Positions 204-26,839 of a stretch of DNA of 64,000 nt are shown piece after piece. Position 1 is the first letter of the stretch. Each line of letters starts with the position of its first letter. Source of the stretch: Sipunculus nudus (taxonomy: Eukaryota > Annelida > Sipuncula > Golfingiida > Sipunculidae); NCBI GenBank assembly GCA_026874595.1, contig CM049308.1, forward strand, positions 891,001 through 955,000, read 5' to 3'. The notes beneath the pieces were generated by a model, which was given only the letters and a program-made list of their open reading frames with translations, ran no database searches and was not told the DNA's origin. The translations under genes and the position numbers were made by a program.

Positions 204-507
204 ATCTAATACTGTCAATATTTGGGAGAAAGCAGGTTTGCTTTTGCTCCATGTCTAGATACATGTAGGTCACTGTCGCCAGTTCAATGTATATTTAATA
301 CAGACCTATCTGGATATCAATTTAGAATTTTCTAAGCCTGGCGTCCAAAAATTTCCTCCTGTTAAAAGGCAGAACTATCCTGCTAAATGCTATCAGAATT
401 ATCCTATTTCTGAAATAAAATATAAAATGCTAAACCATAAGGGTATGATGATTCAAGGGCCTGATGTATAAACACAAAGATTAAATTATTAAATTTCAGA
501 CACTCAC
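204..507 (-). other. Intron sequence, nothing recognisable
   Basis: AT-rich sequence between the 51-bp repeat and the TM8 exon of the ENT gene. It begins, in gene direction, with the donor GTGAGT at 507-502. No other feature is seen. Confidence 0.6.
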
Positions 508-593
508 CACTTGAATCCATCCAGCAATGGTTCTCCCCGCCAGATCACCCAGGTTAAATAACAGGAAGCATGTCACTGGCGTAAAATATCGAT
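508..593 (-). CDS. SLC29 (ENT): ENT (SLC29) internal exon: TM8
   Basis: Internal exon of an equilibrative nucleoside transporter, a membrane protein that moves nucleosides down their gradient. The minus strand reads acceptor TTTCAG (599-594), 86 bp of exon, then donor GTGAGT (507-502). The first two bases complete a GAT codon begun by the 8435-8543 exon. The next 28 codons include RYFTPVTCF and FNLGDLAGR. The latter is the TM8 signature of SLC29 proteins, with its conserved Asp and Arg; GRTIAGWIQV follows, as in the family. The exon ends in phase 0. Its 5' part (569-593) and its acceptor form the first unit of the 52-bp tandem array, which is very unusual. TM9-TM11 should be encoded left of the window. 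Family assignment rests on recalled motifs and phase continuity, not on a database search. Confidence 0.9.
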
Positions 594-1619
594 CTGAAAT
601 TTTAAACCAATATCAGGAGACATGTCACTGGCGTAAAATATCAATCTGAAATGGTAAACCAATATCAGGAGACTTGTCACTGGCGTAAAATATCGATCTG
701 AAATTTTAAACCAATATCAGGAGACATGTTACTGGCATAAAATATCAATCTGAAATGGTAAACCAATATCAGGAGACATGTCACTGGCATAAAATATCGA
801 TCTAAAATTTGAAACCAATATCAGGGACATATCACTGGCTTAAAATAACAATCTCAAATAAACCAATATCAGGAGACATGTCACTGGCGTAAAATATCGA
901 TCTGAAATTTTAAACCAATATCACGGACATGTCACTGGTGTAAAATATCAATCTGAAATAGTAAACCAATATCAAGAGACATGGCACTGGTGTAAAATAT
1001 CAATCTGAAATTTTAAACCAATATCACGGACATGTCACTGGTGTAAAATATCAATCTGAAATAGTAAACCAATATCAAGAGACATGGCACTGGTGTAAAT
1101 TATTGATCTGAAATGGTAAACCAATATCAGGAGACATGTCACTGGTGTAAAATATCAATCTGAAATAGTAAACCAATATCAAGAGACATGGCACTGGTGT
1201 AAAATATCAATCTGAAATGGTAAACCAATATCAGGAGACATGTCACTGGTGTAAAATATCAATCTGAAATAGTAAACCAATATCAGGAGACGTGTCATTG
1301 GCATAAAATATCAATCTGAAATGGTAAACCAATATCAGGAGACATGTCACTGGTGTAAAATATCAATCTGAAATAGAAAACCAATATCAGGAGACATGTG
1401 AGTGGTGTAAAATATCAATCTGAAATGGTAAACCAATATCAGGAGACATGTCACTGGTGTAAAATATCAAACTGAAATGGGAAACCAATATCAAGAGACA
1501 TGTCTCTGGTGTAAAATATCAATCTGAAATGGTTAACCAATATCAGGAGACATGTCAGTGGCATAAAATATCAAACTGAAATGGGAAACCAATATCAAGA
1601 GACATGTCACTGGTGTAAA
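569..1619. repeat. 52-bp exon-derived tandem array, left arm (~20 units)
   Basis: The period is 52 bp (CATGTCACTGG-type landmarks at 569, 621, 673, 725, 777 and on). On the minus strand each unit reads as the end of an intron (TTTCAG) followed by the first ~25-38 bases of the TM8 exon, then a degenerate CTCCTGATATT in place of the exon's CTTCCTGTTATT. The leftmost unit is the real exon. Near the exon, units alternate between ATCGATCTG and ATCAATCTG forms, a 104-bp dimer; further away almost all carry ATCAATCTG. The arm is cut at 1619/1620 by a mobile element and resumes at 6787. Confidence 0.93.
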
Positions 1620-4600
1620 CAAGGGACCCATGGGTCACGGCGCTCAGCTGATCGTGATTGGACTATAAATGTTTCTCTACTGTGATACTACCGTAAAAGT
1701 CGTTGCAGAAGTCGCATCCTTATTACAAGTCGCACCCTGACTTTTAGGATCCCCCTGGGGAATAGCCGTTCAAGTTTAGTTTCAGGAAAAGTCCATAATA
1801 TAGGTCGCACCCAGACTTCGGAGGCGTCCCAACCACCTGATACTTTTGGAATTTGAGTATCATTCCTTGCGATGCAAGACTACAACCAACGTCCCCGTAG
1901 TACTTTTGTGGTTTATAAACTAGATAAACCATTCAAACGTAAAAATAATTGGACAGCTTTAATACAATGCTTATATTTAAGGAATAACAACAGAATCTTA
2001 ACATATAAAGTCGGGGTTCAATTGTCAGGTAAGATTTGTACAGTGCCAAAGTCAGCTGCGTCGGATAACATTTTGTGCTGTGAAACGATGTCGATGTTGC
2101 CGTTTTTTACTAGGTTAAGTAACATTAGAATGCAAATATCAAGTTAAATGACTGTATTAATAAACTAAAAGAGTATGAGGCAAATTACTATCACAATCGA
2201 GCAACTCTTTAAATTGTTAAAGATCGTCAAACGTAGGGTGGATTCATTAGACTATGATTAGTTTGCGTACGCGTGACGAGTCCAAATCCGTCGCATTGGG
2301 CATGATTTGAACTGACTTAAGACAACTGAAAGATGGAAAGAATAATTGAGTTTGAATTTATTCACCTAATTTCTTAAATAGGCTCTAAAACTGAATTTAG
2401 TAACCCTTCAATTAAGTGTTACAACTTACCATCTAGGCGCGGCACATGCACGGTATTACTGAAACCACTGAAATATATGTCAGTCAACAGGGGGATAATG
2501 AACGCTTTATCGACCGGTCAGTTAACGTAAAATAAACATAATTGAATTTACAGATATTATATTTACTGGGACTAATGATTTATTTTTCTTTGATAATATC
2601 TGGAAAACCCAATTTCCATCGTTATCAGTGATTATATTCCAGTGGCTTGGATGTATGGCAAACTCAGCCGTGTTGAACCAGATCCGTCATGACACCAAAC
2701 GGTGCCGGTTCCCGTGGAATTTAGGTGCGTATGTGGCATTTTAAGTAAATAAAATATATACCTATATGGTGTTTGTTATTTCATTGTATTGACTAATGTG
2801 TCTTCATTAAAAAATATCATGAAAACGTCAACGCACGATTGACCGTAATGCATGCGTGCCGCCATATTGTTGGGCATACGATCGTCCTGAAAGAGACACG
2901 GGTAACACTCGGAGCAAATCGTATATTTGTAGCTCACGTGAAACGTTATAACATTGTTATCCAAAACGCTTGAAAACCACGAGATGGTGACAGTGACCTA
3001 ATGGTTCTTAATACGAGAGTTAATAATTGTGGATATCAGTCACGGAAGGCTTAGTTGACATGGGGATGTAAAGGTCATTGCACGGGTGACCCGGGGCTTG
3101 AACTTCCGTTACACGGCTTCAAAGGTCAGCTGGTATTCAGCGATCAACCGGGCAGGCAAAAGAATTCACGACGTATGTGTAGTGGATCAAGCTTGAATGT
3201 GACGCAACTTTACATGCATAAACGGAAATGGAACCGCGAGTTTTTCATTATGGAAAGCATACCCATATAGTTAAACGGAAAGAAAGTGTACATCAAAGAG
3301 CGGCAGACTGGCATATGCGTCAAATTGACTCATGATATAATAGTAACGCAGATTAGGAGGTGTCACTTGAATAGCGACTTGTCAGAACGGGTAGATCTTG
3401 AACTGGGCAAATTTAAAATTTGCATTTAATGTTAATAAAATGAAAATTTCGTCAGTTCACAAAATATAAAGCATAAGAGATGGTTAAAAGTGTAAATTAT
3501 TGGGGAAAGACGTTTCACAAAGCACTGGTTAAAGGTATTGCCGATTATCGCTCAAATGACGTCGTTCCATATACCGGGAAAGCTGACAGAAACGGGATAA
3601 GTACGTATTACAAGTCGCACCCCGACTTTGCTAGAAAATTCTAGTTTTTAGAATTCGATTTCCTAGTACAAGTCGCGACTTCTGCAACGACTTTTACGGT
3701 ATATCGAGTTGATAAAGCTTATGAATATCATGTACATGTTGGGCTATAATAAAGGAATGTAATGTAATATGTGAGTAAATGAAAAATGAAATTACCTGAC
3801 TGATGGATTAATAGAGTCAAATAAAGTGGTTTATTTTTTATTTATTTAGGAGGGGTTGAAAATTGTGATATATTTGAGCAAATATGAATGCAATGACAGC
3901 AGTAATAAGCAGTAGTAGAATGATGATAAGGCTATTTGTTGAAGGATCTAAAGTGTATGGTAGTCTGCAAGCGTTCAATTTGACAGATATGATGTTATGA
4001 TTAACTATGCTGATGAAGTGATTTATGAATATGTGACTGTATGACACAATATCTCTTTAGTCTTGACAAGGTACATTATTGTGATGCCCACTATGTCTAC
4101 ATATTACACAATATTGACATAATTTCTGGCATGTACATAGGTACCTATGGACGAATAGTTATACAAAATATTAAAGTATGAATATATCTGATTCATCTTG
4201 TTCTTGCTTCCTGAGGCTGACTTTGGGATGGGGTTCAAAGAAGGGAAAAGTGAGGGCAGCACAAAAGTGGATGTAGAAATATTCTATTGTAATGTTTTTC
4301 ATTTATATAAGAATATGAAAAGCTTAGAGGAAAGGGGCCCTCCTACTTGGTTATAGTAAAGTTCTAAATATATGATTGCAAACTAATACTCTGACAAGAC
4401 TGTTATGAAGAAAAACAGTAAAAGTTTTGAGATACTGTGTTGCATACGTAAATTTACAGATGGACAGGCAAGTGGACAGAATGGACTAATACCTGTATTT
4501 CACTTTCCAGAGAATAATGCATTTAAGTTTATATATAATCCTATTTTTTTAAGCAGACCCACTTTTTCCATTCAGAAGTTTTTATCTGAATCGTTTTTTT

Positions 4601-6786
4601 ATTTACAGGTTTATAAATTTTTTATTAAAAAACCTGAAAATATAAGTTAAAATATTAGAATTGTTGCAAAAGTTGCAATCATTATATATACAGAGTAAAA
4701 AACATTGGGTCATATAATGCATACACATATATTTTATTATTTTTAAATCATAAATGTTTAAACTGATTTTAAAAGAATATAATGCCACAACATGGCATCT
4801 ACAAGAATATTCCTTGAATCACTATTAAAAAGTTTTGCACATTGGAGTTTTCAGTACATGCTTAATTTTATTCACCAAAATAAAATAAAAGTAAATTTGA
4901 TAAAATAAAACATCTTTTCAAATAAAGTATACACACTGTTGGTTGAATGAGGGACAAACAATATCATTGTGCTAATTACTATCCCAGGTTTAATTAATTA
5001 CTGGAATTAATAGTCAATTTCACACCTGGTGAAGTTTTTACTCTTCTGAAATAAGGAATTACTTATCTCATGAACATCCACACTTTCACAGCAATACACC
5101 ACTTTGTGGACACAATTAAATGTACACTTTAATCATTGTAACCCTGGTGGTTCAATACAAAATCTAAAATGTAGCATGTCCAAGAATAAAATAAAATACA
5201 GAAAAATTATAACATTCATCTAGTTTATGCACCAGCTGGGGGGGGGGGGGGGTGAGTGCAGGGCACAGGGGAAGCCTGCTAGTAGTGGCCAAGCTGGGTC
5301 AAGGTAAGCTGCCTGGGGTAGGTTACATAATGCAAGTGAAGGCTGTACTACTAGGTGGGCTAGATGTAAACAACACTTGACATGGTGTATGAAAACATGA
5401 ATAAAAGCTATTCATTCCAATCAATTTCTTTGAAAGTTCAGATTTTAAAAGATTAAATCCTTATGCATATATGCTGGGAAAATTAAATCAACAGTGCCAA
5501 AGTTGGACAAAATTTAAGGTATTGATTTTTTATTTATGCTAATAACTTGAAAAATTTGCAAAATTCAGATCTAATTTTGGGTAAACAATTGAATCTTGAT
5601 TAAATAAAGTTATATTCCTGAAAAAAAGTCTCTAGGTTCAGCAATTCTCATGTTAGGTGAGTAAATATATTTCCTGATTTTTTAAAAAATTGCATTATGT
5701 TTTGGCCCATAACTTCAAAATAATACCCAATACTGACCTAATTTTTGGTATGTTCATAGAAAATGTATAAAAGAATGTGAATACTAAATACAATCAAAAA
5801 CAAATCAGTGGTTTTGATATTAGGCAGCCTTGAAGTGTAACAATGGCTTTTTTTTATGGAAAACAGAGTTTTTTTCCTTAATATCGCGAAGGAACAAAGT
5901 CCTAATGACCCAATTTTCGGTATGGTAGGAGATTTTGGGGACATCTAAAATTATGTCAACAGCCTGGGGAGCATAGAGATGTGCCCTGAATGACCTACAG
6001 TCATCAAAGTGGACTGCTTGACAATGTAAGGGAATACAACAAGAGCCTCCAAAAAAATTCAATAACTAGCCTAATTTTGCAGCTTTTATTTTCAAATTTC
6101 AGATTTTAACAGATTAAATCCTTATGTATACATGGTGTGAAAATTAAATCTACAGTACTTACAGGAAAAAAACGTGCCATGGCCAAAGTTGGGCAAAATT
6201 TAAGGTACCAATTTTATATTTTTGCCAATATTTAAAAAATTTAACAAAATTTGATCTAATTTTTTAGTATACAATTAAATTTTGATTAATTAAAGTTGTA
6301 TTACTGGAAAAAAGTCCCTACCTTTAACACTTTTGGTCTTAAGTGACCAAATATCTTCCTGATTTTTTTACAAAGTCCATTATGTTTGGGCCCATAACTT
6401 TTTTAAATTATATAATACTGACTTAATATCTGGCATGTACATAGGAACTATATAGAGGAATATTAATGGTAAACCAGATGAGTGGTTTTGATATTAGGCA
6501 GTCCTGAAGTGTGAAAATAGATTTTTAATAAAAAATTGAGGTTTTTCCTTAATATCTCAAAGGAACGAAGTCCTATTGACCCAATTTTTGGCATGGTAGG
6601 AGATTATGGGGACATCTAACAGTATGCAGAAATTCAGATTCGTAGGTCCAACGGTGTCGAAACGTGCCAGTCTTACGGACGGACATCCAGACGGACAGAC
6701 AGATGGACGAACGGACAGACAGACGGACAGACGAAGGACAATGGACCATGACTATAGCTCAGATGACTTATAGTCAGCTGAGCTAA
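1620..6786 (-). mobile_element. Helentron/Helitron2-like non-autonomous element, copy I
   Basis: Both ends are defined because the insertion splits the 52-bp array. The left end starts CAAGGGACCC and holds the 12-bp palindrome GACCCATGGGTC (1625-1636), then GCTCAGCTGA (1642-1651). The right end is a hairpin with 13-nt arms, one mismatch and a TAT loop (6756-6784) followed by an A-run; its TCAGCTGAGC (6774-6783) is the exact inverse of the left motif. A GACGGACA-type microsatellite (about 6674-6735) lies just inside the right end, and a 15-G run sits at 5238-5252. An asymmetric inverted repeat, a hairpin at one end and insertion in an A-run (TT on the other strand) fit Helentron/Helitron2 elements; that class is inferred. 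No Rep/helicase frame is seen. Without the nested 2-kb transposon it is about 3.2 kb, like the copy at 19866-23102. Confidence 0.75.
1691..3699. mobile_element. 2.0-kb TIR transposon with TA duplication (pogo/Tc1-like, non-autonomous)
   Basis: A 25-bp perfect terminal inverted repeat begins CCGTAAAAGTCG at 1691 and ends in the inverse at 3699. TA is present on both sides (1689-1690, 3700-3701). The related copy at 19866 has the same flanking sequence with a single TA (GATACTATATCGAG), so the empty site is directly visible. Inside the ends lie quasi-palindromic motifs AAGTCGCACCCTGACTT (1727-1743), a variant at 1802-1818 and another at 3612-3628, plus the perfect palindrome AAGTCGCGACTT (3670-3681). 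These are candidate transposase-binding sites. The interior is richer in CpG than its surroundings. The longest open frames are about 60-90 codons with no transposase motif, so it is probably non-autonomous. Superfamily is inferred from the TA duplication only. Confidence 0.85.
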
Positions 6787-7540
6787 AAATCAATCTGAAA
6801 TAGTAAACCAATATCAGGAGACATGTCACTGGTGTAAAATATCAATCTGAAATTGTAAACCAATAACATGAGACATGTCACTGGTGTAAAATATCAATCT
6901 GAAATTGTAAACCAATAACATGAGACATGTCACTGGTGTAAAATATCAATCTGAAATGGTAAACCAATATCAGGAGACATGTCACTGGTGTAAAATATCA
7001 ATCTGAAATTGTAAACCAATAACATGAGACATGTCACTGGTGTAAAATATCAATCTGAAATGGTAAACCAATAACATGAGACATGTCACTGGTGTAAAAT
7101 ATCAATCTGAAATGGTAAACCAATATCAGGAGACATGTCACTGGTGTAAAATATCAATCTGAAATTGTAAACCAATATCAGGAGACATGTCACTGGTGTA
7201 AAATATCAATCTGAAATGGTAAACCAATATCAGGAGACGTGTCATTGGCATAAAATATCAAACTGAAATGGGAAACCAATATCAGGAGACATGTCACTGG
7301 TGTAAAATATCAATCTGAAATAGTAAACCAATATCAGGAGACATGTCACTGGTGTAAAATATCAATCTGAAATGGTAAACCAATATCAGGAGACGTGTCA
7401 TTGGCATAAAATATCAAACTGAAATGGGAAACCAGTATCAGGAGACATGTCACTGGTGTAAAATATCAATCTGAAATAGTAAACCAATATCAGGAGACAT
7501 GTCACTGGTGTAAAATATCAATCTAAAATTGTAAACTGAT
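6787..7540. repeat. 52-bp exon-derived tandem array, right arm (~14 units)
   Basis: Continuation of the array at 569-1619 after the inserted element. Units carry ATATCAATCTG almost throughout, with subtypes having AATATCAGGAG or AATAACATGAG. The last recognisable unit ends near 7536 and passes into unique intron sequence. Confidence 0.92.
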
Positions 7541-8434
7541 CCTTGCAAAGCTGTTCAGGTTGAATACTGACAAAAATCAATTCCTCTTTTTATTTGAGAT
7601 CATAAATTATATGCAGTAGTGTTTGGTATTTTTTTCACATGTTGTGATCAGACTCAATTTTGTACTGGTCAGTAAGGCCAGCATACCACAATAGAGTCCC
7701 AAGCTCATGTGTGAAACCATAGGCCCATACACTTACAGTTTTTTATAGTTTAACAGTACTTTTTTAGGCCTGGAACATTAAAACATTTGGCAAAATTCAG
7801 AATATAGACAAATAATATGCTAGTTATTTAGTTACAACTTCTGCAACAACAGGAGGACATCATTATAATTGCCACAGCTTACACAGTGAAGAAAGTAAAG
7901 GACAGAATCAAAAAGAAAACAAACGAGGAGACAAAGGTGTGGGGAATTCCACAGTCACGTACAGGATTTGCAATTTGATGGAGATAAATCCATAGTCTGT
8001 CTTGGCATATACGGAACTGATGGACCATTACCACACATACATTTATATATTTTCCCATACATTTATGACAGCTGGACTGAAAAATGAACTATTGTCACCA
8101 GAGGGAAATATCTGTACGGCAAGTAAAGTTCTGTCCACTTTACATGTCCATATGATTTCTGTATCTACCCCCACATGATCTGGTTGGCAATTAAGAAGCC
8201 ACTATCTGGACAACCCTACACTTCACACAAATGGATGGTCTTTCTTATTTCTTTGTTAAATTGTGCACCATTTTAGCCAAAACCACATCCGTACATGTGG
8301 ACATGCAGCTTTAGACAAACCTTTTTACTAGCATGTCAACCCATGATTGTTGAGTTATTAATCAAATTAACATAGATGTAAAACATATTACAAATTTAAA
8401 GAACTAGGGGTTGTTTATTTGATATAAAACTCAC
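7541..8434 (-). other. Intron sequence, no recognised feature
   Basis: AT-rich, non-repetitive sequence between the 52-bp array and the TM7 exon of the ENT gene. No open frame of interest and no RNA gene is seen. The donor of the TM7 exon (GTGAGT, 8434-8429) lies at its right edge. Confidence 0.6.
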
Positions 8435-8543
8435 CACTCCATATATTATTGTGGTTTGATGACCGTATTGCTGAGTTTAATGCTGGGTAGCAGGCTAATG
8501 TCACAAAAAATATACTAAACACACTCAATCCATACACCCAAAT
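8435..8543 (-). CDS. SLC29 (ENT): ENT (SLC29) internal exon: TM7
   Basis: The minus strand shows a pyrimidine tract ending TTTTTTTCAG, a 109-bp exon, and donor GTGAGT. Translation in phase 0 gives IWVYGLSVFSIFFVTLACYP and then a short extracellular loop rich in Ser and Asn ending IWS. This is the TM7 segment of equilibrative nucleoside transporters, where an (I/V)W followed by a hydrophobic stretch with FFVTL is typical. The previous exon ends FKQ in phase 0; the joined VFKQ-IW matches the family. The exon leaves one base (G) that combines with AT of the 508-593 exon to make Asp. Splice sites, phase and protein order all agree. Confidence 0.92.
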
Positions 8544-8585
8544 CTGAAAAAAAGAGAGAAACATTTCAGAATATGTTACAGAAGA

Positions 8586-8965
8586 AGAGATAAAACATAT
8601 ATCTTATTATAAAGCCAATGACACATTATTACCAATAAAACATATATTTCATTAAAATGCCAATGACACATAATTACAGATGAAACACATATTTTATTAT
8701 AATGCCAATGACACATTATTACCAATAAAACATATTTTATTATAATGCCAATTACACATTATTACCAATAAAACATTTATTTTATAAAATGCCAATTACA
8801 CATTATTACCAATAAAACATATATTTTATTATAATGCCAATGACTCATTATTACCAATAAAACATATATTTTATTATAATGCCAATTACACATTATTACC
8901 AATAAAACATATATTTTATTATAATGCCAATTACACATTATTACTAATAAAACAAATATTTTCCA
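8586..8965. repeat. ~45-bp AT-rich tandem repeat, about 8 units
   Basis: GCCAATGAC/GCCAATTAC landmarks occur at about 8614, 8659, 8704, 8747, 8791, 8835, 8881 and 8926, so the period is 43-46 bp. The unit contains ATTATTACCAATAAAACAT. It lies 40 bp upstream (gene direction) of the TM7 exon acceptor. An open frame on the minus strand is only a read-through of the repeat. Confidence 0.93.
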
Positions 8966-9115
8966 TATAATGTACATATGTGATCGTGTGCATGTTATTT
9001 TTACTTGTTTCATGAGAAAACTTGAAATGTCTGGCATTGCAATTGAGTTGCCATAGCATGTATACCATGACAATGGTAACATCCCTTTAAAATAGACCCT
9101 CTACACTGACATATA

Positions 9116-10865
9116 CCGTAAAAAACCGCATATACGTCGAGAAATTTGTTCCCAAAAAATTAATCCAAGAAAGGGGAGTCGACTTATGTGCGGGTCTAAG
9201 CCTGAGAGGCAAAATTTTGCACGAACATAGTCAAACTGCCGGCCTGAATGTCTTAACTGATCGACAACTAGATATCCATTTCTGGTGAAGTCAGGTACAC
9301 AAGTCCCCCTTTCGGTCCAAAAATACAGTCTAATAAGGTTTCCGAACTTTTTTTTCGAATTTTGACCATTTACGCTGTTCTTTCATTTGGATAATGCAGT
9401 ATATTAAAATGTTTGCAATTTACGTGGTTCATAACAACCAGGAAATGACCCGCGTGTAGCTATTATGAGCTTCATTCACGGGCGATTAAGTACGAGTGCA
9501 AGAGGCACGGGTATTGCGTAATCAGTTGGGATTTTATCCAGGGCATCGGCCCCTGTGTATTTGACATCCAATTATGTTACAGTATTTCCCCACAAAAACA
9601 TTTGGTGCTTGCGTAAGTTTGCAAACATGTAAACGTTAAAAGCCTGTGGGCCGTGGTATCTGAACTACAGACAGGTGACAAATGGCTGATTACAGCACCG
9701 ATTAGCGCTCAATCGGTACGGGGATGACAGCCTGTCCCAAGAAGCTCAAAACTAGGTCACGCTGTTCACCTGTGTACTTACACGCGGGGGAAATTATTAC
9801 TCCGTTCGGGAGTTCCTACATAAAAATCACCCCAAATCGTAGTGAATGACTGCGGCCCTGAGCAAAGCTCGGGAAAAAAATTGATATCGCTATGAACAAA
9901 CGAACACAAAACCTGCATGACTTAGTAAAAATTAGTACTCCACAGAATGTGAAATATATGATTCATTCACGAAAACTTTCATCAAAAATAAAGAAAAAAG
10001 GAGTTTGTTCAAAGAACGACTGACGTGTTGTCCACGTATTGCCCTGGCTTCCGTGCTCTCACTCTGCGGTTCGCTATGCTGGATACCTACGCTGCATATA
10101 TGCAGTTATATCGCATGTACTTGTTCATTAGTGCGTCCGTCTGTGGAGGCAAGGAAGACCGGAGTTAATTAAAACTTGAATAAAACTGTCGTTTACGGCC
10201 TTGTGTTTTCTCAGAATGTATAAAAAAATCTCTGATAATAAAATTCCTGCCCTTGATCCACGGATATGACTAAGCTGAGGACAGCTAACATTGTCACGGG
10301 GCCTTTTCAGGCGACTCGCTTGGTCCCAACTTCGCGCGTTCTTTTCAATTTAGATTATATAAAATGTAGAGAAGTGCGCGACAAATCTGTTTTAGTAACA
10401 CGCTTAAATAGTCATATTTTTATTGATACCTGACACAAACAATTATTAGAAGTTTAAAATAAATGAGCAATGACGGAAAGTGTGAGAAATCCTTGGCTGT
10501 TCTATTATCTCGCACTTGCCGATTCTGGGTGTCAGACGATCTTCATTTCTGCAAAATACTTTAAGTATCGACCTGTTATATTTATTAATCTTAGAGTCTT
10601 TATGATGCCAAATATAACTTTTAAATAGATTGCACAACCAAACAAATGACATTTTTACAGTTTAAAAAAAAAATTGGAGTGGTATAAATGTAAAAAACAA
10701 GTGGCCAGTCACATAATTCACCTTTCCCCATTGGCCTGTCACACTACTCTCAATGGTCATGTATGCTGCTTCAGACCTGTTTTTACCTCAAGAATGGCTT
10801 GAAAAATTTTTTACCTGAAATTTACCCTGAAAATTAATACTCGACTTATATGCGAGTTTTTACGG
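9116..10865. mobile_element. 1.75-kb TIR transposon with TA duplication (pogo/Tc1-like)
   Basis: The left end begins CCGTAAAAAACCGCATATA; the right end is the imperfect inverse, ending CTCGCATATAAGTCGAG on the minus strand and closing at TTTTTACGG. TA flanks both ends (9114-9115, 10866-10867). Just inside the left end, TCGACTTATGTGCGG (near 9178) is an imperfect inverse of the terminal CCGCATATACGTCGA, so that end can fold on itself. The interior is CpG-rich compared with the flanking intron and holds no transposase-like frame. It shares the CCGTAAAA tip and GTCG-rich subterminal motifs with the 1691-3699 element but is not a copy of it. It sits in the intron between the TM7 and loop exons. 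Confidence 0.85.
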
Positions 10866-10950
10866 TAGTAAGCCTTGTTTAACATATAAATCTATTCAAC
10901 GTGAGGCTCAGAGCAACATCAATGAACATGTCAAATCTCACAAAACAAAA

Positions 10951-12075
10951 CAAGGGACCTGTGGGTCACAGCAATCAGCAGAAATTGACTATGAGAATAC
11001 ATAAATAAAATCCTAGTGGTCGTGTTGAGTGTGCACTTTTATGGATTACAAGAAAGATGCAAAAGCCTCTCATGATCAAATATCTGTAAAGTTTCAGTAT
11101 TTCAACTGTGTGACTGTTAAACACTTGTAAAAACACCCAATGGGTACATATGAAACCGTTTATATGATAGAATAAGTAAGAAAGAGGAGATGAGCTGAAG
11201 TACAATTATACATGTTTAATTTATTGCCTAAAATAAAATGCTAAAAAAAAATAAAATGTTCAATTTCCAAATTAGAATAAATCAAATCATGTTTCTGGCC
11301 AGTATCTCACAGAAAAAAGGTCATCACAACCTAATTTCAGGTTTCCAAGGAGATTTGTCCAAGGCTTCCCTAGATCTTATGTTTAAAGATTTTTGGGCAA
11401 ATGAAATATTTTGTGCCAATATGATATTCAGGGTGTTTATATCATGCTATCTGTCGGTAGCTCACAGAATATAGGCCATCATGACCTGATTTCAGGTTTC
11501 CTAGGAGATCTGCACAAGACCCTGACTGATATGTAAGAATATTCTAGGGCTGACAGATACATTTTGTGTCCTGTCTGACTGTCTGGATGCTCAAAACTTT
11601 TGGCCTGTAGCTTGCAGAATATAGGTCACTCTGATGTAGTTTCAGGTTTTCAAGGAGATTAATCTAGAACTTCCACGGATTTGGGCCTGAAGATTCTAGG
11701 CTTATGGATACAATTTGTGCCCAGCTGACATTAAGGGTGTTAAATTAATGTTTTTTCCTATAGCTTGCAGAATATAGGTCAAAGTTACCAAGGACCTGCC
11801 TGCGTATTACGTTAGGAGATTCTAGGCCACATGATTGTGCCCCACCTGACTGCCTGGGTGCTCAAAATCGGTTTTCAGCCCCTAGCTCCATCAAATAGGT
11901 CACCATGACTTAATTTCAGGTTTCAAAGGAGATTTTTATCCAGGACTTCCCTGGGTGTACAGTTAGAAGTTTCAAGGTCAAATTAATACAGTTTGTGCAT
12001 TGTTAACGGCCGTCAGATGGATGACAGGAAAACAGTAATCACTATAGTTTAGATAACTTACAGTCAGCTGAGCTT
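10951..12075 (-). mobile_element. Short Helentron-like element with ~150-bp internal repeats
   Basis: The left end CAAGGGACCTGTGGGTCAC (10951) is a degenerate form of the end at 1620, and the right end AGTCAGCTGAGCT (to about 12074) matches the hairpin end at 6784 with weaker pairing. Inside, a degenerate repeat of about 150 bp recurs near 11301, 11457, 11610, 11760 and 11881, marked by AATATAGGTCAC and TTTCAGGTTTCC. The same internal unit is found at 16910-18000 and 30128. The degenerate ends suggest an old insertion. Confidence 0.6.
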
Positions 12076-12076
12076 A

Positions 12077-12436
12077 TAAGAGACCAAATGGTCAGGTCTT
12101 ACAAGGACTCAGAGACTGTGCAGGATAATGGGGTAAAAAAACAAAACAAACAGTGAAACTGAAGATACAATTTCACCTGTAATCCAAAAAAGGTTTCCAT
12201 AGCTGCCATGGCTGTGGCAAAGAAATATACCAGTGATATTTTATGGTAACAGGTCAGCTGTGTTACTGTTGAAGAGATACAGTCACTGTCCGCAATATGT
12301 ATATGTGAGCTTTCATAACTTCAAACAACGCCCCCCCCCCCAATTTTAAGGCTACTGTGAGTTTAACCTCATGCTGTTTACTAAGAAGAGTCACACACAG
12401 CATCAAACAACAGTGTGAATAAAGCCTTAATCTTAC
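12077..12436 (-). other. Intron sequence with an 11-C run
   Basis: Unique intron sequence 3' of the loop exon. It contains a C homopolymer at about 12331-12341. No other feature is seen. Confidence 0.55.
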
Positions 12437-12570
12437 CTGTTTAAATACTGTTAATATAGGAACTTTACTAGAAACTGTGCTTGTTTCTTCTAGCGACTGG
12501 TAATCTGTGAGGGATTCTGATACTCGTTTTGATGTTTCCTCTCCCTCTCTTGCCAGACTCACATCTCTCT
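12437..12570 (-). CDS. SLC29 (ENT): ENT (SLC29) internal exon: central cytoplasmic loop to TM7
   Basis: The minus strand shows acceptor TTGTACAG, a 134-bp exon, and donor GTAAGA after CAG. The first two bases complete a Lys codon begun by the microexon at 16128-16152. Then come 44 codons: a hydrophilic segment rich in Ser, Thr and Glu (for example EGEETSKRVSESLTDYQSL) followed by VPILTVFKQ. In SLC29 proteins the large TM6-TM7 cytoplasmic loop has this composition and ends in a segment like TVF(K/Q)K(I/Q) just before TM7. The exon ends in phase 0 and joins IWVYG of the 8435-8543 exon. The loop is variable in the family, so this exon alone would not identify it; the phase links do. Its acceptor lies in a short AG-rich stretch, so a nearby AG could be used instead. 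Confidence 0.85.
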
Positions 12571-12599
12571 CTGTACAAGAAATCATTTAATAAAATACA

Positions 12600-13020
12600 T
12601 AACAACACCACATACTGGTAATATACCCATTGTATGTCTTGTGACCTTTGACCTTATCAGATATGCACTTATTTTGCAGACAATTGAACCCGGGGAGGTT
12701 CTTACATGGTTTAACATTTACACTGAATGTCAGCAAAATCCAACAAAATCCTAGTCACAGCAGTGCAATGAAGAAGTCTGGGGCCCTTTGACCTTATTAA
12801 ATTTGCATGGATTTTGCTGAGATTTGAATTCAGGTGAGAACCTTTATTTGTATATATTTTTATAAAGGGTTTAAAGAAAATCAAACAGATCTTTGGTTAT
12901 TCATCACAGTGCCTCCAGTCTGGTGACCTCTGACCTCTTCAAAAATGCAAGGCTTTTGCTTGGAATCCAACCAAGGCAAAATATCACATTGGTTAATATT
13001 TCTCTTGAGTTTCATCAAAC
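12600..13020. repeat. Degenerate ~140-bp repeat, three copies
   Basis: Blocks beginning GTGACCTTTGACCTTATCAG (12641), CCTTTGACCTTATTA (12785) and GTGACCTCTGACCTCTTC (12921) are spaced about 140 bp and continue with a related TTGCAxxxATTTTGC segment. They resemble the ~144-bp half-units of the array at 13241-14480. They lie upstream (gene direction) of the loop exon. Confidence 0.55.
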
Positions 13021-13060
13021 CCATTATATTCCTGTTAAGTTATCACAGCCACACTAAAAA

Positions 13061-15087
13061 ACTAGACATTTCTTGGCACCTGCGGTGCCAGAGTATCCCC
13101 AGACATAGTAGCCCCCCCCCTTTAAGAATAGACCCCCATTTTTAGCATATACTGACACTTGGCATATTAATTGTTTCTTCTATCTAACAATCCACAATCT
13201 TGTTGAAGATGTTGGTCCTGTGACCATGATCTTTTTAAAGATGTGTCCTGTGACCTTGACCTTTGACCTCATGACCCCAAAATCAATTTGGGTCTTACTT
13301 TTCCAATGGGACATATGGAAGTCAAGTTTGAAATCTATACATCAATAAAGCAGGAATTATCATCCAGAAACTAATTTTTGGACAGAAGGCTTCTGTGACC
13401 TTCACCTTTGACCTTGTGACCTCAAAATTGATAGTGTTCTTCCTCTCTTGGCAGGAGAACTATATGTGCAAGATGAAAGATCTGAGATGAAATGTTTGGC
13501 TGAAAATGCATCCACATCTTTTTAAAGATGTGTCCTGTGACCTTGACCTTTGACCTCATGACCCCAAAATCAATTTTGGTCTTGCTTTTCCAATGGGACA
13601 TATGCAAGTCAAGTTTGAAATCCATACATCAATAAAAGCAGGAATTATTATCCAGAAACTAATTTTTGGACAGATGGCTCCTGTGACCTTCACCTTTGAC
13701 CTTGTGACCTCAAAATTGATAGGGGTCTTCCACTCTTGGCAGGTGAACTATATGTGCAAGATGAAAGATCTGAGATGAATTGTTTGGCTGAAAATGCATC
13801 CACAATCTTTTTAAAGAGGTTTCCTGTGACCTTGACCTTTGACCGCATGACCCCAAAATCAATTCGGGTCTTGCTTTTCCAATGGGTCAAATACAAGTCA
13901 AGTTTGAAACCCATACATCAATAAAAGCAGGAATTATTATCCAGAAACTAATTTTTGGACAGATGGCTCCTGTGAACTTCACCTTTGACCTTGTGACCTC
14001 ACAATTGACAGGGGTCTTCCTCTCTTGGCAGGTGAACTATATGTACAAGATGAAAGATCTGAGATGAAATGTTTGGCTGAAAATGCATCCACATCTTTTT
14101 AAAGATGTGTCCTGTGACCTTGACCTTTGACCTCATGACCCCAAAATCAATTTGGGTCTTGCTTTTTCAATGGGACATAAACAAGTCAAGTTTGAAATCC
14201 ATACATCAATAAAAGCAGGAATTATCATCCAGAAACTAATTTTTGGACAGATGGCTCCTGTGACCTTACACCTTTGACCTTGTGACCTCAAAATTGATAG
14301 GGGTCTTCCACTCTTGGCAGGTGAACTATATGTGCAAGATGAAAGATCTGAGATGAATTGTTTGGCTGAAAATGCATCCACAGTATCTTTTAAAATGCCA
14401 GTCCAGTGACCTTGACCTTTGACCTCATGACCCTAGAACCTATAGAGTTCTTACTTTAGTGGTGGGCCATACATAAGTCATGTTTGAAATCCATATGGCT
14501 ATCAACACTGGAGATATCATAAGAGGTGTGTGATTTTCACCATATATGGCAATATTCAAGGTCAAGGCCACTATCATAGGAAAGGTCATGACCCCAATTC
14601 AAATAAACATCATCCCATAACCCATACCTATGTATATGCATAATATAAAAGAAATCTGTCCATTAGTTTTTGACTTATAATGCTCACAGTACTGTAAGGT
14701 GGCAATGTTGGGGGTATTAAATGGCACGAAAACAAGTAAAGAATAATAGGTGGCACCACCAGTTTCTGGAACATGACAACCCTATCCATGATCTTCCATC
14801 GACTTGATTTTGGGATAATCCATGCAAGATTTCTTGAGATATTAAAGAATTTTTGTGATTTTCCCCAAAATTGGACCTATTCAAGGTCAAGGACACTCTC
14901 CTAGTAAAGGTCATGACCTCATTTTAAATAGGTGTATTCCTCTTACCCATATCTATACATATACCAAGTTTGGTAAAGTTCCGTGAAATATTTTTTGGGT
15001 TATCGCACCAACAAGATTTATATGCGGCGGCGGAGGCGGCGGGACCGGTATGAAAACAAAGTATCCCCGACTTTGTCTGGGGATACA
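13061..15087 (-). mobile_element. Hairpin-ended rolling-circle-like element, family 2
   Basis: The left end ACTAGACATTTC is followed by a perfect hairpin GGCACC-TGC-GGTGCC (13075-13089), then GTATCCCCAGACA (13093-13105). The right end is a hairpin (15061-15086) with a TTT loop whose right arm, TGTCTGGGGATAC (15074-15086), is the exact 13-bp inverse of the left motif. The left end follows an A-run. The layout (short hairpin plus inner inverted repeat at one end, terminal hairpin at the other) is the same as in the families at 1620 and 23322, though the sequences differ. Near the right end a GCGG-rich stretch lies at 15022-15045. The interior holds the 288-bp array. No protein-coding frame is seen. 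It lies in the intron between microexon and loop exon. Confidence 0.7.
13241..14480. repeat. 288-bp tandem repeat (two ~144-bp halves), about 4.2 copies
   Basis: Unit starts (ATGTGTCCTG-type) fall at 13241, 13528, 13817, 14105 and 14395. Each unit has two related halves, one around TGACCTTGACCTTTGACC and one around TGACCTTCACCTTTGACC, so it is a dimer of ~144 bp. Similar single blocks occur near 25348-26160. Several short open frames on both strands are read-through of this repeat. Confidence 0.92.
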
Positions 15088-15465
15088 ATAACAGACAGAC
15101 CACAACCCCCATATCATAATATGACCTGTCTCAATCCAACAGGAGAGACCACATTTCCTGTATAAACTAACTACTGAATTAAAAAGAGGATAACCAAACG
15201 ATACCAAATCTCTCTGGCACTAAAAAACGAATAGCTTACCAAATAAACTCTGGAAAAATCACTTAAATAAAGAGTGCTGCATGTTTTCATAAAGGTTTAT
15301 ATTACAATAATTATTCAGAAATAACAATTACAATGATTGTAATTGGAAACATGGGCAGTGAAGAAATATAGGAAAATAAAGGAGATAATTTTATAGATGT
15401 TGGAAAAATATAAGAAACTGAAGGAGACAGTTTTTCATAAAAAAATATACAAAATAGGAGTAAGT
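15088..15465 (-). other. Intron sequence, nothing recognisable
   Basis: AT-rich unique sequence between the family 2 element and the 26-bp repeat. No feature is supported. Confidence 0.5.
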
Positions 15466-15741
15466 TGGAGCCCTGATATACAGTTGGACTCCTCTGTCCT
15501 GATGTACAGTTGGACCCCTCTGTCCTGTTATACAGTTGAACCCCTCTGTCCTGATATACAGTTGGACCCCTCTGTCCAGATGTACCCCTCTGTCCTGATG
15601 TACAGTTGGACCCCTCTGTCCTGATGTACAGTTGGACCCTTCTGTCCTGATGTACAGTTGGACCCCTCTGTCCTGATATACAGTTGAACCCCTCTGTAAA
15701 GATGTACAGTTGGACCCCTCTGTCCTATGTACAGTTGGACC
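15466..15741. repeat. 26-bp tandem repeat, ~10 copies
   Basis: The unit is CAGTTGGACCCCTCTGTCCT plus GATGTA (or GATATA). One unit near 15570-15600 is shortened. The open frames across it on both strands (repeats of YSWTPLSC or TEGSNCTS-like) arise because the repeat lacks stops in some frames; I do not call them genes. Confidence 0.95.
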
Positions 15742-16038
15742 CATCAATCAAACATCTGATAATTTGGCTTTCGGGGTAATATGGCAGATTCCTTGAAAAC
15801 ATATTTTCCTGTATCATTTTATAATAAGTTCTAATCTGACATTTTGTGTAATGCAACTCATTCACCATTGATGAAGCCCAATATCCCTTATTGCAGTAAA
15901 CTATATCCATGTGATCCAGCAAACCTGAGTGACCTCCAAGCCATAACATGACCCTGATGAAAATTTAATCCCTGATTGTGACAAATTAAAGGGGTCCAAT
16001 TGTAGGGAGTCTGACTGACTCCGGTAAAAAAGTTAGTG

Positions 16039-16041
<3 letters not shown>
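15742..16041 (-). other. Intron sequence, nothing recognisable
   Basis: Unique AT-rich sequence between the 26-bp repeat and the TA microsatellite. No feature is supported. Confidence 0.5.

Positions 16042-16083
<42 letters not shown>
16042..16083. repeat. (TA)n microsatellite
   Basis: About 20 uninterrupted TA dinucleotides, 45 bp downstream (gene direction) of the microexon donor. Confidence 0.97.
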
Positions 16084-16087
<4 letters not shown>

Positions 16088-16127
16088 TGATATATAATGC
16101 TGATGATATATATATCTGATCACTTAC

Positions 16128-16152
16128 TTTTTATATAATGCCTTGCAAATCG
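16128..16152 (-). CDS. SLC29 (ENT): ENT (SLC29) 25-bp microexon after TM6
   Basis: The minus strand reads a strong pyrimidine tract and acceptor (TTTTCTTTCCAG), 25 bp of exon, and the near-perfect donor GTAAGTG (16127-16121). Read in phase 0 it encodes RFARHYIK plus one base, A. That A joins AG at the start of the 12437-12570 exon to make Lys. In SLC29 proteins the segment just after TM6 reads like (K/E)(F/Y)ARYY, so position and sequence fit. The previous exon, encoding TM6, is not found in the rest of the window. An exon this short would be missed by most gene finders. It is supported by splice signals, family motif and phase, with no transcript evidence. Confidence 0.78.
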
Positions 16153-16414
16153 CTGGAAAGAAAACAAATCATATTTATATATTATGTCTTCAGTTTATTT
16201 TGTGAGGTTCATGGAAGTTAAGATATTACACATAATCAATATGGCATTGTATGCAGACAAAACTTATCTTAATACCACAAAATATTGTATATCATATAAA
16301 CTGTTTAATAATATACCTTTGAGATTTATTAATATGATTTTGATTATTATATCATTCATAATTATTTATTCATCATTATGAACTTTTTTACTTATGCCTG
16401 CACTCTAAACACAT
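16153..16414 (-). other. Intron sequence, nothing recognisable
   Basis: AT-rich sequence upstream (gene direction) of the microexon. A 65-codon plus-strand open frame here has no recognisable features and is not called. Confidence 0.5.
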
Positions 16415-16627
16415 CAAATGCTGACACCATACGCCTGCACAGTTTATTCTAAATATCAACAAGTGACCCATGGATCATGATGCTCAGTTGTGAAGGAGGA
16501 CATACACAAAAGGAATTTGGACAACAAATGCTGACACCATACGGCTGCACAGTTTATTCTAAATATCAACAAGTGACCCATGGATCATGATGCTCAGCTG
16601 TGTAGGAGGACATACACAAAAGGAATT
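16415..16627. repeat. 110-bp direct duplication carrying an element left end
   Basis: CAAATGCTGACACC starts at 16415 and 16525, and the two 110-bp copies are nearly identical. Each contains a left terminus of the CAAGGGACCC family (CAAGTGACCCATGGATCATG at 16460 and 16570). The outer nested element therefore has two left ends in tandem. Confidence 0.93.
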
Positions 16628-19241
16628 AAATCATCTGAATGCCAAATTTTTTAGGTGGTATCCCCATTCAACTGTAGCTATAAGTTCTTCAAAATCAACA
16701 AGAAGAAAGTTTCATGACACTGTGTCCAGCCATTCCCATGAAATCTAGCCTTTTGTATGCAGGCAGTTGAGATAAAAATTACCAAGCAAATTTCTTAAGG
16801 ACATCCCTGGATGTCAAGACAGAAGATTTTAAGGTCCATCAGTAAAGTTTTGTACCCTGTCTGACTGTCTGGGCGCTTAAAATGTTTAAAATTGCTTAAA
16901 TGCTTAAAATGGTAAGTAATATAGGCCACCATGACCTAATTTCAGGTTTCCATTAAGATTGCCAAAGATGTTTTGGCCAGTGGCATTCAAAATATAGGTC
17001 ACCATGACCTAATTTCAGGTTTCCATGGAGATTGCCCAAGACTTCCTTGTATATAACATTGGAACTTTCTCTTTAAGGGTTAGCATATAACTAATACAAG
17101 GCATTCTCCATGGCTCGGATATTTGCGCTCAGTGGTTGGTAAGGGTGGAGGACACTGGAGAACCCAGAGAAAACCACTGGCCACGGATGGACCACTACAA
17201 CCCACTCTCATAGCCACGCCAGGAATCCAACCCGGCTGCCAACGGAGAAGGTTGAGCGTTTCACCACTCAGCTGTCCAGGGTTTTAAAAACATGTTTTTG
17301 GCCCATAGTTCACAAAATATAGGTCATTATGACCTAATTTCAGGTTTCCATGCAAATTTACCAAGGACTTGCCTGAATATCATGTTAGAAGATTCTAGGC
17401 CTTGCAGATACAATATGTGCACCATGTGAATGACTGGATGCTCAAAATCATGTTTCAGCCTGTAGTTTGCAAAATATTGGTCACCATGACCTAATTTCAG
17501 GTTTCCATGCAAATTTACCCAGGACCTCCCAGGATGTACAGTTAGAAGTTTCTAGTTATTACAGTTATGATTTGTGCCCTGTTAACGGATGGACTGCTCC
17601 ATCTAAAGGTCTCAAAAATAGAGAAATAAATATGTAAAAATTAGAAAAATTACAGGTGGTGCCACCAGTCTTCAGGAAATAATGAAACACTATTTGATTA
17701 GTATATATGGAAAGAATCAAGGCAATCAATGCATTAGTTATCAGGTATTGGAGCTTTTGTATCAAATTTTTAATTATTCTTGGGGGGGGGGGTTACTTAT
17801 AAGCCCCATAGCTAGGAGGATATAAGTCAAAGTGACAAAATTCTGATGAGAATTTTTATCGACCTCCATGGGAATAACGTAAGAAGATTCTAGGCCTAAC
17901 AGATACAATATTTGCACCATCTGACTGACTGGGTGCTCAAAATCATGTTTTCAGCCTGTAGTTCGCAAAATATGTCACCATTACCTAATTCAGGTTTCCC
18001 AGGGGATTGGCCTAGGCACTCCCTGTATGTACAGTGCGAAGTTTCTAGGTTATGGCTATGATTTGTGCCATGTTAAGGGTGAACTAATTCACCTGAAGAT
18101 CTCAAAAATAGGGAAATGGGACCCATGGGTCACATCACTCAGCTGAATTTTGGAAAATATTAGTAACTGCAAAATATTTTTATTTCTTTTGGTTTTTCAT
18201 GTATATTATCATTTGAAAATCTATGAGAAAATGGCCCTGCTAAAATGAAACTCTGTAAATTATAAAATAATGGACATGAGCTAAACCATTTAGTGATGCA
18301 CCAAGGGAACAAATAGGCCTACAGTAAGTGTTATATTAAAGTAACATTTCATAAACAAATAATGCGTGAAGGTAATTAAGTTTTCAAAAGTTAAATATAT
18401 GGCCATATGAGTTAAAAATTAATCCCACAAAGTTGGCCAATATTCCTAATTTTAACTCTAAGTTAACAGTGTTATTCACACCTAGGCCCCGCCAACTTTG
18501 AGAGATATGAATGAAATGCTACAAAGTATTTATATTTTCTTAAATCTTGTCAGTTTGCACTTACATTAGATCCTAATATTTTATCACATTTACACATTAG
18601 GAATAAATTCCTGAACATTTTTCTTTAAAAAAATCAAAATCGTCCAAGTCTCAACAAAAAGAATTTATTTAACATTAAAATTATAAGATTCATCCTGTTT
18701 ATTAGTCCTGTGTATTGAAGGTGTGGGTGGTGGGAGGGGTCTCTATTGTTACTGCTCATTGCAGAATGGCGTCCAGTGGGGGGGGGGGGGAAGAGAAAAA
18801 GGCTCCCTGTGGTATTAGCTGCAGACAGCCTGATCAAGCTCAACTCAGTGGAGAGAGGGCTTGCCCTAGTGATGGGATTACATAACAACAGCCTTGGCAG
18901 CATGGAGAGCTGCACTGAATGACCTACAGTGACCAAAGTGGACTGCTTGACAATGTAAGGGAATACAACAAGAGCCTCCAATAAAATTAAATAACTAGCC
19001 TAATTTTGCAGCTTTTATTTTCAAATTTCAGATTTTAACAGATTAAATCCTTATGTGTACATGCTGTGAAAATAAAAACCACAGTACTTACAGGAAAAAA
19101 ACGTGCTGTGGCCAAAGTTGGGCAAAATTTCAGAAACAAATTTTTTATTTTTGCTAATATTTTAAAAAAATTAAAAGATTTTGATCTAATTTAAGTTATA
19201 TTACTGGAACAAGGGACCCATGGGTCATGGCGCTCAGCTGT

Positions 19242-19667
19242 TATATATGATAAAAATATGATTTTGAAATGAGGCACATGCTGGTTTTGTGTGGTTATAA
19301 ATATAAGCTGTATTATGAGTTGTTGGTGTTAAGCTTATGTATGATTTTGATAGTTTCTTTGGAGACAGGGAAGAGATTGATTTCAATTATTTTAACAAAT
19401 GGAGTGCTACCGCCATACAGATTTTGACTTGGCCATATAATATTATAGAATATATTCATGAATGCATTCATAAATACATTTTGAAAGTATTTGCACTGGC
19501 TTTCAAATACTTTCATTTTTACCTGAATTCCCATTCTTATGCAAGAAATTTTTATAATGGAGTACATATTCATATTCGTATTCAAATACAATTGCAAAGT
19601 TTTTGCACCATGTCTGGTATTTATTCAGTTTTAGCCAAACAATGATGTTGAGAATCCAGAATATAAA
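19242..19667. other. Unrelated sequence between two left termini of level C
   Basis: About 425 bp lies between the left end at 19210 and a second left end at 19668, with no counterpart in copies I or II. It carries overlapping open frames of 94-102 codons on both strands, with no recognised domain. It may be host or other sequence picked up when an upstream left end was used. An alternative is a deleted right end. Function unknown. Confidence 0.45.
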
Positions 19668-19865
19668 CAAAGGACCCATGGGTCACGGCGCCCAGCTTTA
19701 GTTTTAAATTTTTGCAAATGAAAAATATAAAAAATATTCTATTGTAATGTTTTTCATATATAAGCATATGAGAAGCTAAGAGGAAAGGGGCCCTCCTACT
19801 TGGTTATAGTAAAGTTCTAACTATATGATTGCAAATTAATACTCTGACAAGACTAACATGAAGAA

Positions 19866-22800
19866 CAAGGGACCCATGGGTCACGGCGCTCAGCTGATCG
19901 TGATTGGACCATAAATGTTTCTCCACTGTGATACTATATCGAGTCGATAAAGCTTATGAATATCATGGACATGTTGGGCTATTATAAAGGAATGTAATGT
20001 AATATGTGAGTAAATGATAAATGAAATAACCTGACTGATGGATTAATAGAGTCATATATAGTGGTTTATTTTTTATTTATTAAAGAGGTGTAGAAAATTG
20101 TGATATATTTGAGCAAATATGAATGCAATGACAGCAGTAATAAGCAGTAGTAGAATGATGATAAGGCTATTTGTTGAAGGATCTAAAGTGTATGGTAGTC
20201 TGCAAGCGTTCAATTTGACAGATATGATGTTATGATTAACTATGCTGATGAAGTGATTTATGAATTTGTGACTGTATGACACAATATCTCTTTAGTCTTG
20301 ACATGGTACATTATTGTGATGCCCACTATGTCTAAATATTACACAATATTGACATAATTTCTGGCATGTACATAGGTACCTATGGACGAATAGTTATATA
20401 AAATATTAAAGTATGAATATATCTGATTCATCTTGATCTTGCTTACTGAGGCTGACTTTGGGATGGGGTTCGGAGAAGGGAAAAGTGAGGGCAGCACGAA
20501 GGTGGATGTAGAAATATTCTATTGTAATGTTTTTCATTTATATAAGAATATGAAAAGCTAAGAGGAAAGGGGCCCTCCTACTTGGTTATAGTAAAGTTCT
20601 AAATATATGATTGCAAACTAATACTCTGACAAGACTGTCATGAAGAAAAACAGTAAAAGTTTTGAGATACTGTAATGTATGAAAATTTACAGATGGAAAA
20701 TTTACAGATGGACAGGCAAGTGGACAGAATGGACTAATACCTTTATTTCACTTTCAAGGGAATAATGCATTTAAGTTTATATATAAGCCTATTTTTTTTT
20801 AAGCATATCCACTTTTTCCATGAAGAAGTTTTTATCTGAATCATTTTTTTTATTTACAGGTTTTATAAATTTTAAATGAAAAAACCTGAAAATATAAGTT
20901 AAAATATTAAAATTGTTGCAAAAGTTGCAATCATTATATATACAGAGTAAAAAACTGAAACTATAAGTTAAAATATTAGAATTGTTGCAAAAGTTGCAAT
21001 CATCATATATCCAGAGTGTAGCTCATATTTGGTCATATTATGCATACACATATATTTTATTATTTTTAAATCATAAATCTTTAAACTGAATTTAAAAGAA
21101 AATAATGCCACAACATGGCATCTACAAGAATATTCCTTGAATCACTATTAAAAAGTTTTGCACATTGGAGTTTTCAGTACCTGCTTAATTTTATTCACCC
21201 AAATAAAATAAAAGATTCAGTAAATTTGATAAAATAAAACATCTTTTCAAATAAAGTATACACACTGTTGGTTGAATGAGAAACAAACAATATCATTGTG
21301 CTAATTACTATCCAAGTTTTAATTAATTACTGAAATTAATAGTCAATGTCACACCTGGTGAAGTTTTTACTCCTCTGAAGTAAGGAATTACTTATCTCAT
21401 AAACATCCACACTTTCATAGCAATACACCACTTTGTGGACACAATTAAATGTACACTTTAATCATTGTAACCCTGGTGGTACAATACAAAATCTAAAATG
21501 TAGCATAGCCTAGAATAAGAATGAATCACATACAGAAAATAATAACAATTATCTAGTTTATGCATCATCTGGGGGGGGGGGGGGGGGGGGGGAGGGAGTG
21601 CAGAGCAGAGGGGAAGCCTGCTGGTAGTGGCCAAGCTGACCCAAGGCAAGCTGCCTGGGGTGGGTTACATAATGCAAGTGAAGGCTGTACTACTAGGTGG
21701 GCTAGATGTAAACAACACTTGACATGGTGTATGAAAACATGAATAAAAGCTATTCTTTCCAATCAATTTCTTTGAAATTTCAGATTTTAAAAGATTAAAT
21801 CCTTATGTATATATGCTGTGAAAATTAAACCAAGAGTGCCAAAGTTGGACAAAATTTAAGGTATTGATTTTTTATTTATGCTAATAACTTGAAAAATTTG
21901 CAAAATTCAGATCTAATTTTGGGTAAATAATTGAATCTTGATTAAATAAAGTTATATTCCTGAAAAAAAGTCTCTAGGTTCAGCAATTCTCATGTGAGTA
22001 AATATATTTCCTGATTTTTTAACAAATTGCATTATGTTTTGGCCCATAACTTCAAAATAATACCCAAAACTAACCTAATTTTTGATATATTCATAGAAAA
22101 TGTATAAAAGAATGTGAATCCTAAATACGATCAAAAACAGATCAGTGGTTTTGATATTAGGCAGCCCTGAAGTGTAACAATGGCTTTTTTTTATGGAAAA
22201 CAGAGTTTTTTTTCCTTAATATCTCGAAGTCCTGAACAAAGTCCTAATGACCCAATTTTCGGTATGGTAGGAGATTTTGGGGACATCTAAAATTATGTCA
22301 ACAGCCTGGGGAACATAGAGATGTGCACTGAATGACCTACAGTCATCAAAGTGGACTGCTTGACAATGTAAGGGAATACAACAAGAGCCTCCAAAAAAAT
22401 TCAATAACTAGCCTAATTTTGCAGCTTTTATTTTCAAATTTCAGATTTTAACAAATTAAATCCTTATGTATACATGGTGTGAAAATTAAATCCACAGTAC
22501 TTACAGGAAAAAAACGTGCCGTGGCCAAAGTTGGGCAAAATTTAAGGTACCAAATTTTGATCTAATTTTTGGTATACAATTAAATTTTGATTAATATAAG
22601 TTGTATTACTGGAAAAAAGTCCCTACCTTTAACACTTTTGGTCTTAAGTGACCAAATATCTTCCTGATTTTTTTACAAAGTCCATTATGTTTGGGCCCAT
22701 AACTTTTTTAAATTATATAATACTGACTTAATATCTGGCATGTACATAGGAACTATATAGAAGAATATTTATGGCAAATATGAAGAAAACCAGATGAGTG

Positions 22801-26456: not shown

Positions 26457-26459
26457 AAA

Positions 26460-26834: not shown

Positions 26835-26839
26835 ACGGC

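Follow-up and report, generated by a model that had tools for sequence, protein, structure and literature searches.

The left end of the window, the 64,000-nucleotide stretch of Sipunculus nudus DNA analysed here, carries a minus-strand gene of the SLC29/ENT family, for which two exons, named A and B, were identified and are joined in phase 1. The intron between them contains a tandem array of a 52-bp unit, each copy with its own AG acceptor; those lying before exon B are referred to here as decoys. Decoys and whole units are named by their first exonic base. Listed in the direction of the gene, the features are as follows:

8543-8435, minus strand: exon A, IWVYGLSVFSIFFVTLACYPALNSAIRSSNHNNIWS plus one base; open frame, with a TTTTTTTCAG acceptor and a GTGAGT donor at 8434
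8434-594, minus strand: phase-1 intron of 7,841 nt, containing the array and the insertion
7537-7580, minus strand: probably the ancestral 3' flank of the intron, adjoining the outermost decoy (ancestry judged from the outer-edge comparison)
6784-7536, minus strand: far block, 14 whole decoys with first exonic bases from 7522 to 6846, together with the surviving acceptor (6794) of the cut unit
1618-6789, no strand assigned: mobile-element insertion, edges good to a few bases (BLAST against the window)
1689-3701, no strand assigned: nested element, its inverted ends matching perfectly over 27 nt and the outer TA interpreted as a target duplication
609-1617, minus strand: near block, 19 whole decoys with first exonic bases from 1575 to 645, plus the rest of the cut unit
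557-608, minus strand: real unit, 15 intron nt (608-594) and 37 exon nt (593-557)
593-508, minus strand: exon B, 86 nt, RYFTPVTCFLLFNLGDLAGRTIAGWIQV after the split codon; open frame
502-507, minus strand: exon B donor, GTGAGT

The family assignment applies to the two-exon piece, which belongs to SLC29/ENT in that it exceeds the curated cut-off of PF01733 (Pfam; 50 bits against 29.8, E 3.7e-13). In a search of PDB sequences, human ENT1 matched the joined exon A/exon B peptide at E 7.2e-08, gapless over the aligned stretch; miniGq, returned for the same peptide at E 6e-4, was taken as a chance match. Since the joined peptide fits both ENT1 and PF01733, position 593 is the acceptor that the protein requires. 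A large protein set returned two relatives, P0001 and P0002 (the two with E up to 1 among 10 candidates), and CFLLFNLGDLAGRTIAG is common to exon B and both of them. The alignment with P0001 has a two-residue gap shortly before the exon A/B junction and none at the junction itself. When P0001 and P0002 were searched by tblastn against the whole window, exons A and B were recovered, A at E 0.016 and 0.048, and beyond these exons there were only matches with E of 1.2 or more.

Further ENT exons were sought in the window by Pfam, PDB-sequence and tblastn searches, and none was found. Pfam models run against the three minus-strand frames of 8551-18000 and 18001-27900, with stops masked, gave nothing above a family's cut-off; Colicin_D (E 0.079) and a DddA-like match (E 0.066), both in the minus-strand frames of 8551-27900, fell below it and were taken as chance. 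PDB sequences had no match in the same kind of frames over 8400-20000, a search that is insensitive, as it also missed the known exon A.

The 52-bp unit consists of the last 15 nucleotides of the intron and the first 37 of exon B, a few units deviating slightly in length. There are 34 decoy acceptors in the intron (33 whole units and one unit cut by the insertion), in agreement with the original prediction of about 34, and the real exon B is the 35th and last unit in gene direction. The unit at 557-608 is alone in continuing into coding sequence, and 593-508 runs on to the donor, just as had been proposed. The cut unit has kept its acceptor at 6794, and its remainder lies just above unit 1575. 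Within each block the acceptors are spaced 49-52 bp apart. AG is retained in every decoy (31 TTTCAG, 2 TTTTAG and 1 TTTGAG), and decoys 697 and 901 are identical to the real acceptor throughout the stretch from -20 to +3. The expected series of near-identical acceptors is therefore present, with AG in 34/34; the expected single array is not continuous, 1618-6789 being mobile DNA.

On average, two of the 33 whole decoys are 90% identical, with means of 93% for the far block and 88% for the near block; this set of 33, which leaves out the cut unit at 6794, also underlies the column, lag, tree and CpG figures given below. Exon B aligned with the neighbouring unit 645 over 37 nt with a score of 29, against a maximum of 17 among 2000 single-base shuffles of the exon. 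This unit-exon alignment had been set beforehand as the check on the claim that the array was made from the exon's own splice acceptor, and the claim held, the likeness spanning 37 nt of exon rather than a few bases.

A second copy of the inserted mobile element was found at 19864-23105 by BLAST of the insert against the window, in pieces 92, 94 and 97% identical to the first. The nested element is missing from this copy, which has an empty site with a single TA in its place. At 19732-23322, sequence resembling 4277-4629 of the first copy lies on the flanks of the second, an arrangement suggestive of one copy having inserted into another. A Pfam scan over five of the six frames of 1600-7500 had no match above cut-off; Cbl_N2 came closest, at E 0.18. 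In the unit tree, several unit sub-types occur in both blocks, and the array therefore predates the insertion.

Other tandem repeats are present in the window. From 31191 onwards the window consists of a 43-bp satellite, which continues past the window's end at 64000, with about 764 copies, 93% matches and a GC skew of -0.60 to -0.63. In the intron upstream of exon A, a 45-bp array (8590-8962, 8.4 copies) stops about 46 nt short of the exon and leaves the junction outside. Downstream of exon B, the intron contains a 51-bp array (1-204, 4 copies, cut by the window edge), in which the exon-derived unit has no match. Units of 289 bp and 180 bp form arrays at 13229-14433 (4.2 copies) and 26841-28285 (8.0 copies), respectively. 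Rfam at gathering scores gave 0 matches over the 64000 bases, and ARAGORN reported 0 genes.

The kind of structure seen in the ENT intron is already known, and the ENT case is a large and clean further mirage; a 2002 paper by Canestro is reportedly a mirage paper. Mirages, named at Adh3, are minisatellites lying across intron-exon boundaries of amphioxus genes, and they are described for the globin genes BflGb6 and BflGb9 and for Adh3 (PMC3087553). According to the same paper, the Adh3 data and the authors' RT-PCR suggest that splicing is undisturbed (PMC3087553). A troponin C mirage and similar repeats in PGBD5 were added later, in a second paper (PMC3902484). The original prediction knew of no described example, a view overtaken by these published amphioxus mirages (PMC3087553, PMC3902484).

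The ENT array has the structural features of a mirage: its units span the authentic intron-exon boundary (15 intron and 37 exon nt), that boundary lies at one end of the array and continues into the gene (exon B, 593-508), and splice signals are found in the copies (AG in 34/34). As in the amphioxus cases, the tandem repeats cross an intron-exon boundary and many of them keep AG/GT (PMC3087553, PMC3902484). In these sources the BflGb6 mirage lies over the same boundary as the ENT array, the 3' end of the intron and the 5' part of the exon, and the amphioxus mirages are described as turning over like other tandem repeats. The two differ in scale, the ENT gene having 34 extra acceptors, where the two BflGb6 haplotypes have 6 and 3 repeat units, and a unit of 52 bp as against 150-160 bp (10-72 bp in Adh3). 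Unlike the amphioxus mirages, the ENT array lies in another gene, is split by mobile elements and is known from sequence. In a limited literature search, covering the accessible text of the sources, no mirages outside cephalochordates were found.

Use of the decoys would have consequences for the reading frame. When spliced to exon A and followed as far as donor 507, every one of the 34 hits a premature stop, after one codon in 29 decoys, after 2 in unit 1107, after 10 in unit 852 and after 20, 41 and 41 in the ATCGAT-type units 901, 801 and 697. The original prediction that any decoy would be harmful is right as far as the stops are concerned and wrong in giving the ATCGAT-type units about 12 codons. 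The commonest decoy stop is the change of CGA to TGA, a CpG transition. A scan of the gene strand for the GTRAG motif found no such donor inside either block. The nearest GTRAG upstream of the exon B donor is at 2429, and donor 507 is the first GTRAG usable by the near-block decoys. Paired with this donor, the six nearest decoys would form exons measuring 138 to 394 nt, and exon definition alone thus does not exclude them.

Pyrimidine counts over the 17 positions from -20 to -4 do not single out the real acceptor as the strongest: its count is 9, which 30 of the 34 decoys exceed and the other 4 equal, and the exon A acceptor has 16. Branch-point-like YTNAY motifs were found 17-23 nt before 31 of the 34 acceptors scanned, and these are ordinary, as unique intron carries 0.75 of them per 32 nt. 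RNA folding of 508-808 gave a z of -2.2, with 2 of 100 shuffles as stable; shuffling breaks up the repeats, which limits this comparison.

Several acceptors before one exon are also found in NAGNAG and other tandem acceptors, where they lie a few bases apart and are often in frame; by comparison, the ENT decoys lie 49-52 bp apart within each block and all lead to stops. A minisatellite in human IFI6 (6-16) is said to give multiple splice donors, as attributed to Turri 1995, and some of the repeated donors are reportedly used in transcripts. The ENT array, like IFI6, is a minisatellite with many copies of a splice site, but these are donors in IFI6 and acceptors here; a 5' splice site was not found in the ENT unit, to judge from the lack of GTRAG on the gene strand of either block.

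The original prediction had also raised the possibility of a splicing regulator or nonsense-mediated-decay switch. The decoys would then compete, and array length together with splicing-factor levels would set the amount of productive ENT mRNA, the rest going to nonsense-mediated decay. The intact AG of all 34 decoys, the premature stop from every one of them (after a single codon in 29/34) and the weak real acceptor, with its 9/17 pyrimidines against 16/17 for exon A, would all suit such a role. However, the acceptor letters are kept no better than other columns. Among the 33 whole decoys, special conservation of these letters was not seen, as 6 of the 52 six-column windows vary as little as TTTCAG or less, and the constancy of AG is not distinctive, as 13 of the 52 dinucleotides never vary. 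Furthermore, the CGA to TGA stop is expected from CpG decay without selection, and the described mirages are reported not to disturb splicing (PMC3087553, PMC3902484). A regulator is therefore unsupported, and we consider it unlikely. It is quite improbable that the array works as a length-tunable rheostat, in which dozens of near-equal acceptors, each leading to a stop, would compete for the spliceosome and let the repeat number set the productive share of ENT mRNA.

That the array damages the gene, the decoys lowering correct splicing and the allele being weak or dying, seems unlikely. In favour of it, the upstream context of the real acceptor is now exon-derived repeat DNA, and the acceptor's pyrimidine tract is poor. 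Against it, both exons still have an open frame and intact splice sites, and they preserve conserved residues in common with human ENT1, P0001 and P0002.

As to its origin, the array probably multiplied in place from the exon's own junction, and comparison of the units with the exon and their surroundings shows that descent runs from exon to unit. Most of the residues encoded by the exon part that the unit shares are conserved in human ENT1, P0001 and P0002. Both CpG sites of the exon have been lost from most units, with decay in either possible direction: among the 33 whole decoys, the first site reads TG in 29, CA in 1 and CG in 3, and the second reads CA in 23, TG in 6, AG in 1 and CG in 3. 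In all, 60 of the 188 exonic differences between exon and units fall in 4 CpG columns, and 59 of these 60 are C-to-T or G-to-A, counts in which the units share ancestry and the events are not independent. At the outer end of the array, likeness to the unit reaches the unit's own edge and no further, ending about 14-15 nt short of the AG of unit 7522. In addition, a similarity search of the whole window found the 52-bp unit nowhere else in it. These four points, coding conservation, CpG decay, an outer edge that is the unit edge and no unit elsewhere in the window, all indicate descent from exon to unit.

Three of the same points tell against the opposite history, in which a satellite came first and the exon start was taken from it by exonisation. 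The 37 nt common to repeat and exon speak for it, but the shared part codes for largely conserved residues, CpG decay runs from exon to unit and there is no unit elsewhere in the window, which leaves exonisation very improbable.

Turnover may have left its mark on the units. The far block has a three-unit (156-bp) higher-order structure and the near block a two-unit (about 104-bp) one, the lag-3 and lag-2 similarities, respectively, each being matched by 0 of 5000 order shuffles. Such blocks of 3 and 2 units, seen here in one haplotype, are consistent with what unequal exchange gives. In the unit tree, exon B groups with units 697, 801 and 901 (support 90/96), with no fork at the tool's star and the bootstrap unsettled. 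A gradient of exon likeness with distance along the array was absent (Spearman -0.09, p 0.61).

That the copies are short alternative exons, a tandem exon duplication with mutually exclusive splicing, is barely credible: each copy does have an acceptor and an exon start, but in place of whole in-frame exons with acceptor and donor, the copies end at 37 of the 86 exon nt, have no GTRAG donor and run into stops.

The reading that we favour, with a probability of about 0.78, is that of a tolerated mirage-type minisatellite that would serve no function in itself, the real exon being selected because it alone has the full exon sequence and a donor, with splicing deduced from the protein. It would have begun with the duplication in place of a 52-bp stretch spanning the ENT exon's 3' splice junction, after which unequal exchange of blocks of units would have raised the number to 35 copies, the real one included; a mobile element later split the array inside one unit. 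To judge from the protein, splicing would normally go to 593, the acceptor that alone is joined to a complete exon and donor, while the decoys carry at most 37 nt of exon and have no donor. Occasional misuse of a decoy would presumably be removed by nonsense-mediated decay. No evidence points to a purpose for which the array would be maintained. Weighing against this reading are a real acceptor that the decoys equal or exceed in pyrimidines, two of them (697 and 901) being identical to it from -20 to +3, the six nearest decoys that exon definition alone would admit, the lack of a distance gradient in exon likeness and the unsettled unit tree.

Beta-globin pre-mRNAs with duplicated 3' splice sites, reportedly the subject of Reed and Maniatis 1986, offer an engineered parallel to such a tolerated mirage. 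As in the ENT gene, identical acceptors stand in cis with the upstream one on a truncated exon (PMC5389562); the beta-globin constructs have two laboratory-made sites, compared with 35 in the natural ENT gene. With 14, 55 or 205 nt of exon on the upstream copy, only the distal site was used, and splicing was very inefficient (PMC5389562). By analogy, these duplicated-site experiments fit the choice of 593, the last acceptor (PMC5389562).

The ENT locus provides a natural competition test of 3' splice site choice, in which 35 near-identical acceptors stand in cis and the correct one is the last and not the strongest. If 593 is used cleanly, the exon body and its donor outweigh both the strength and the order of acceptors. 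The locus also shows clearly how an exon junction can give rise to a minisatellite, with CpG decay revealing the direction of descent, and through it the range of mirages may come to reach beyond lancelets.
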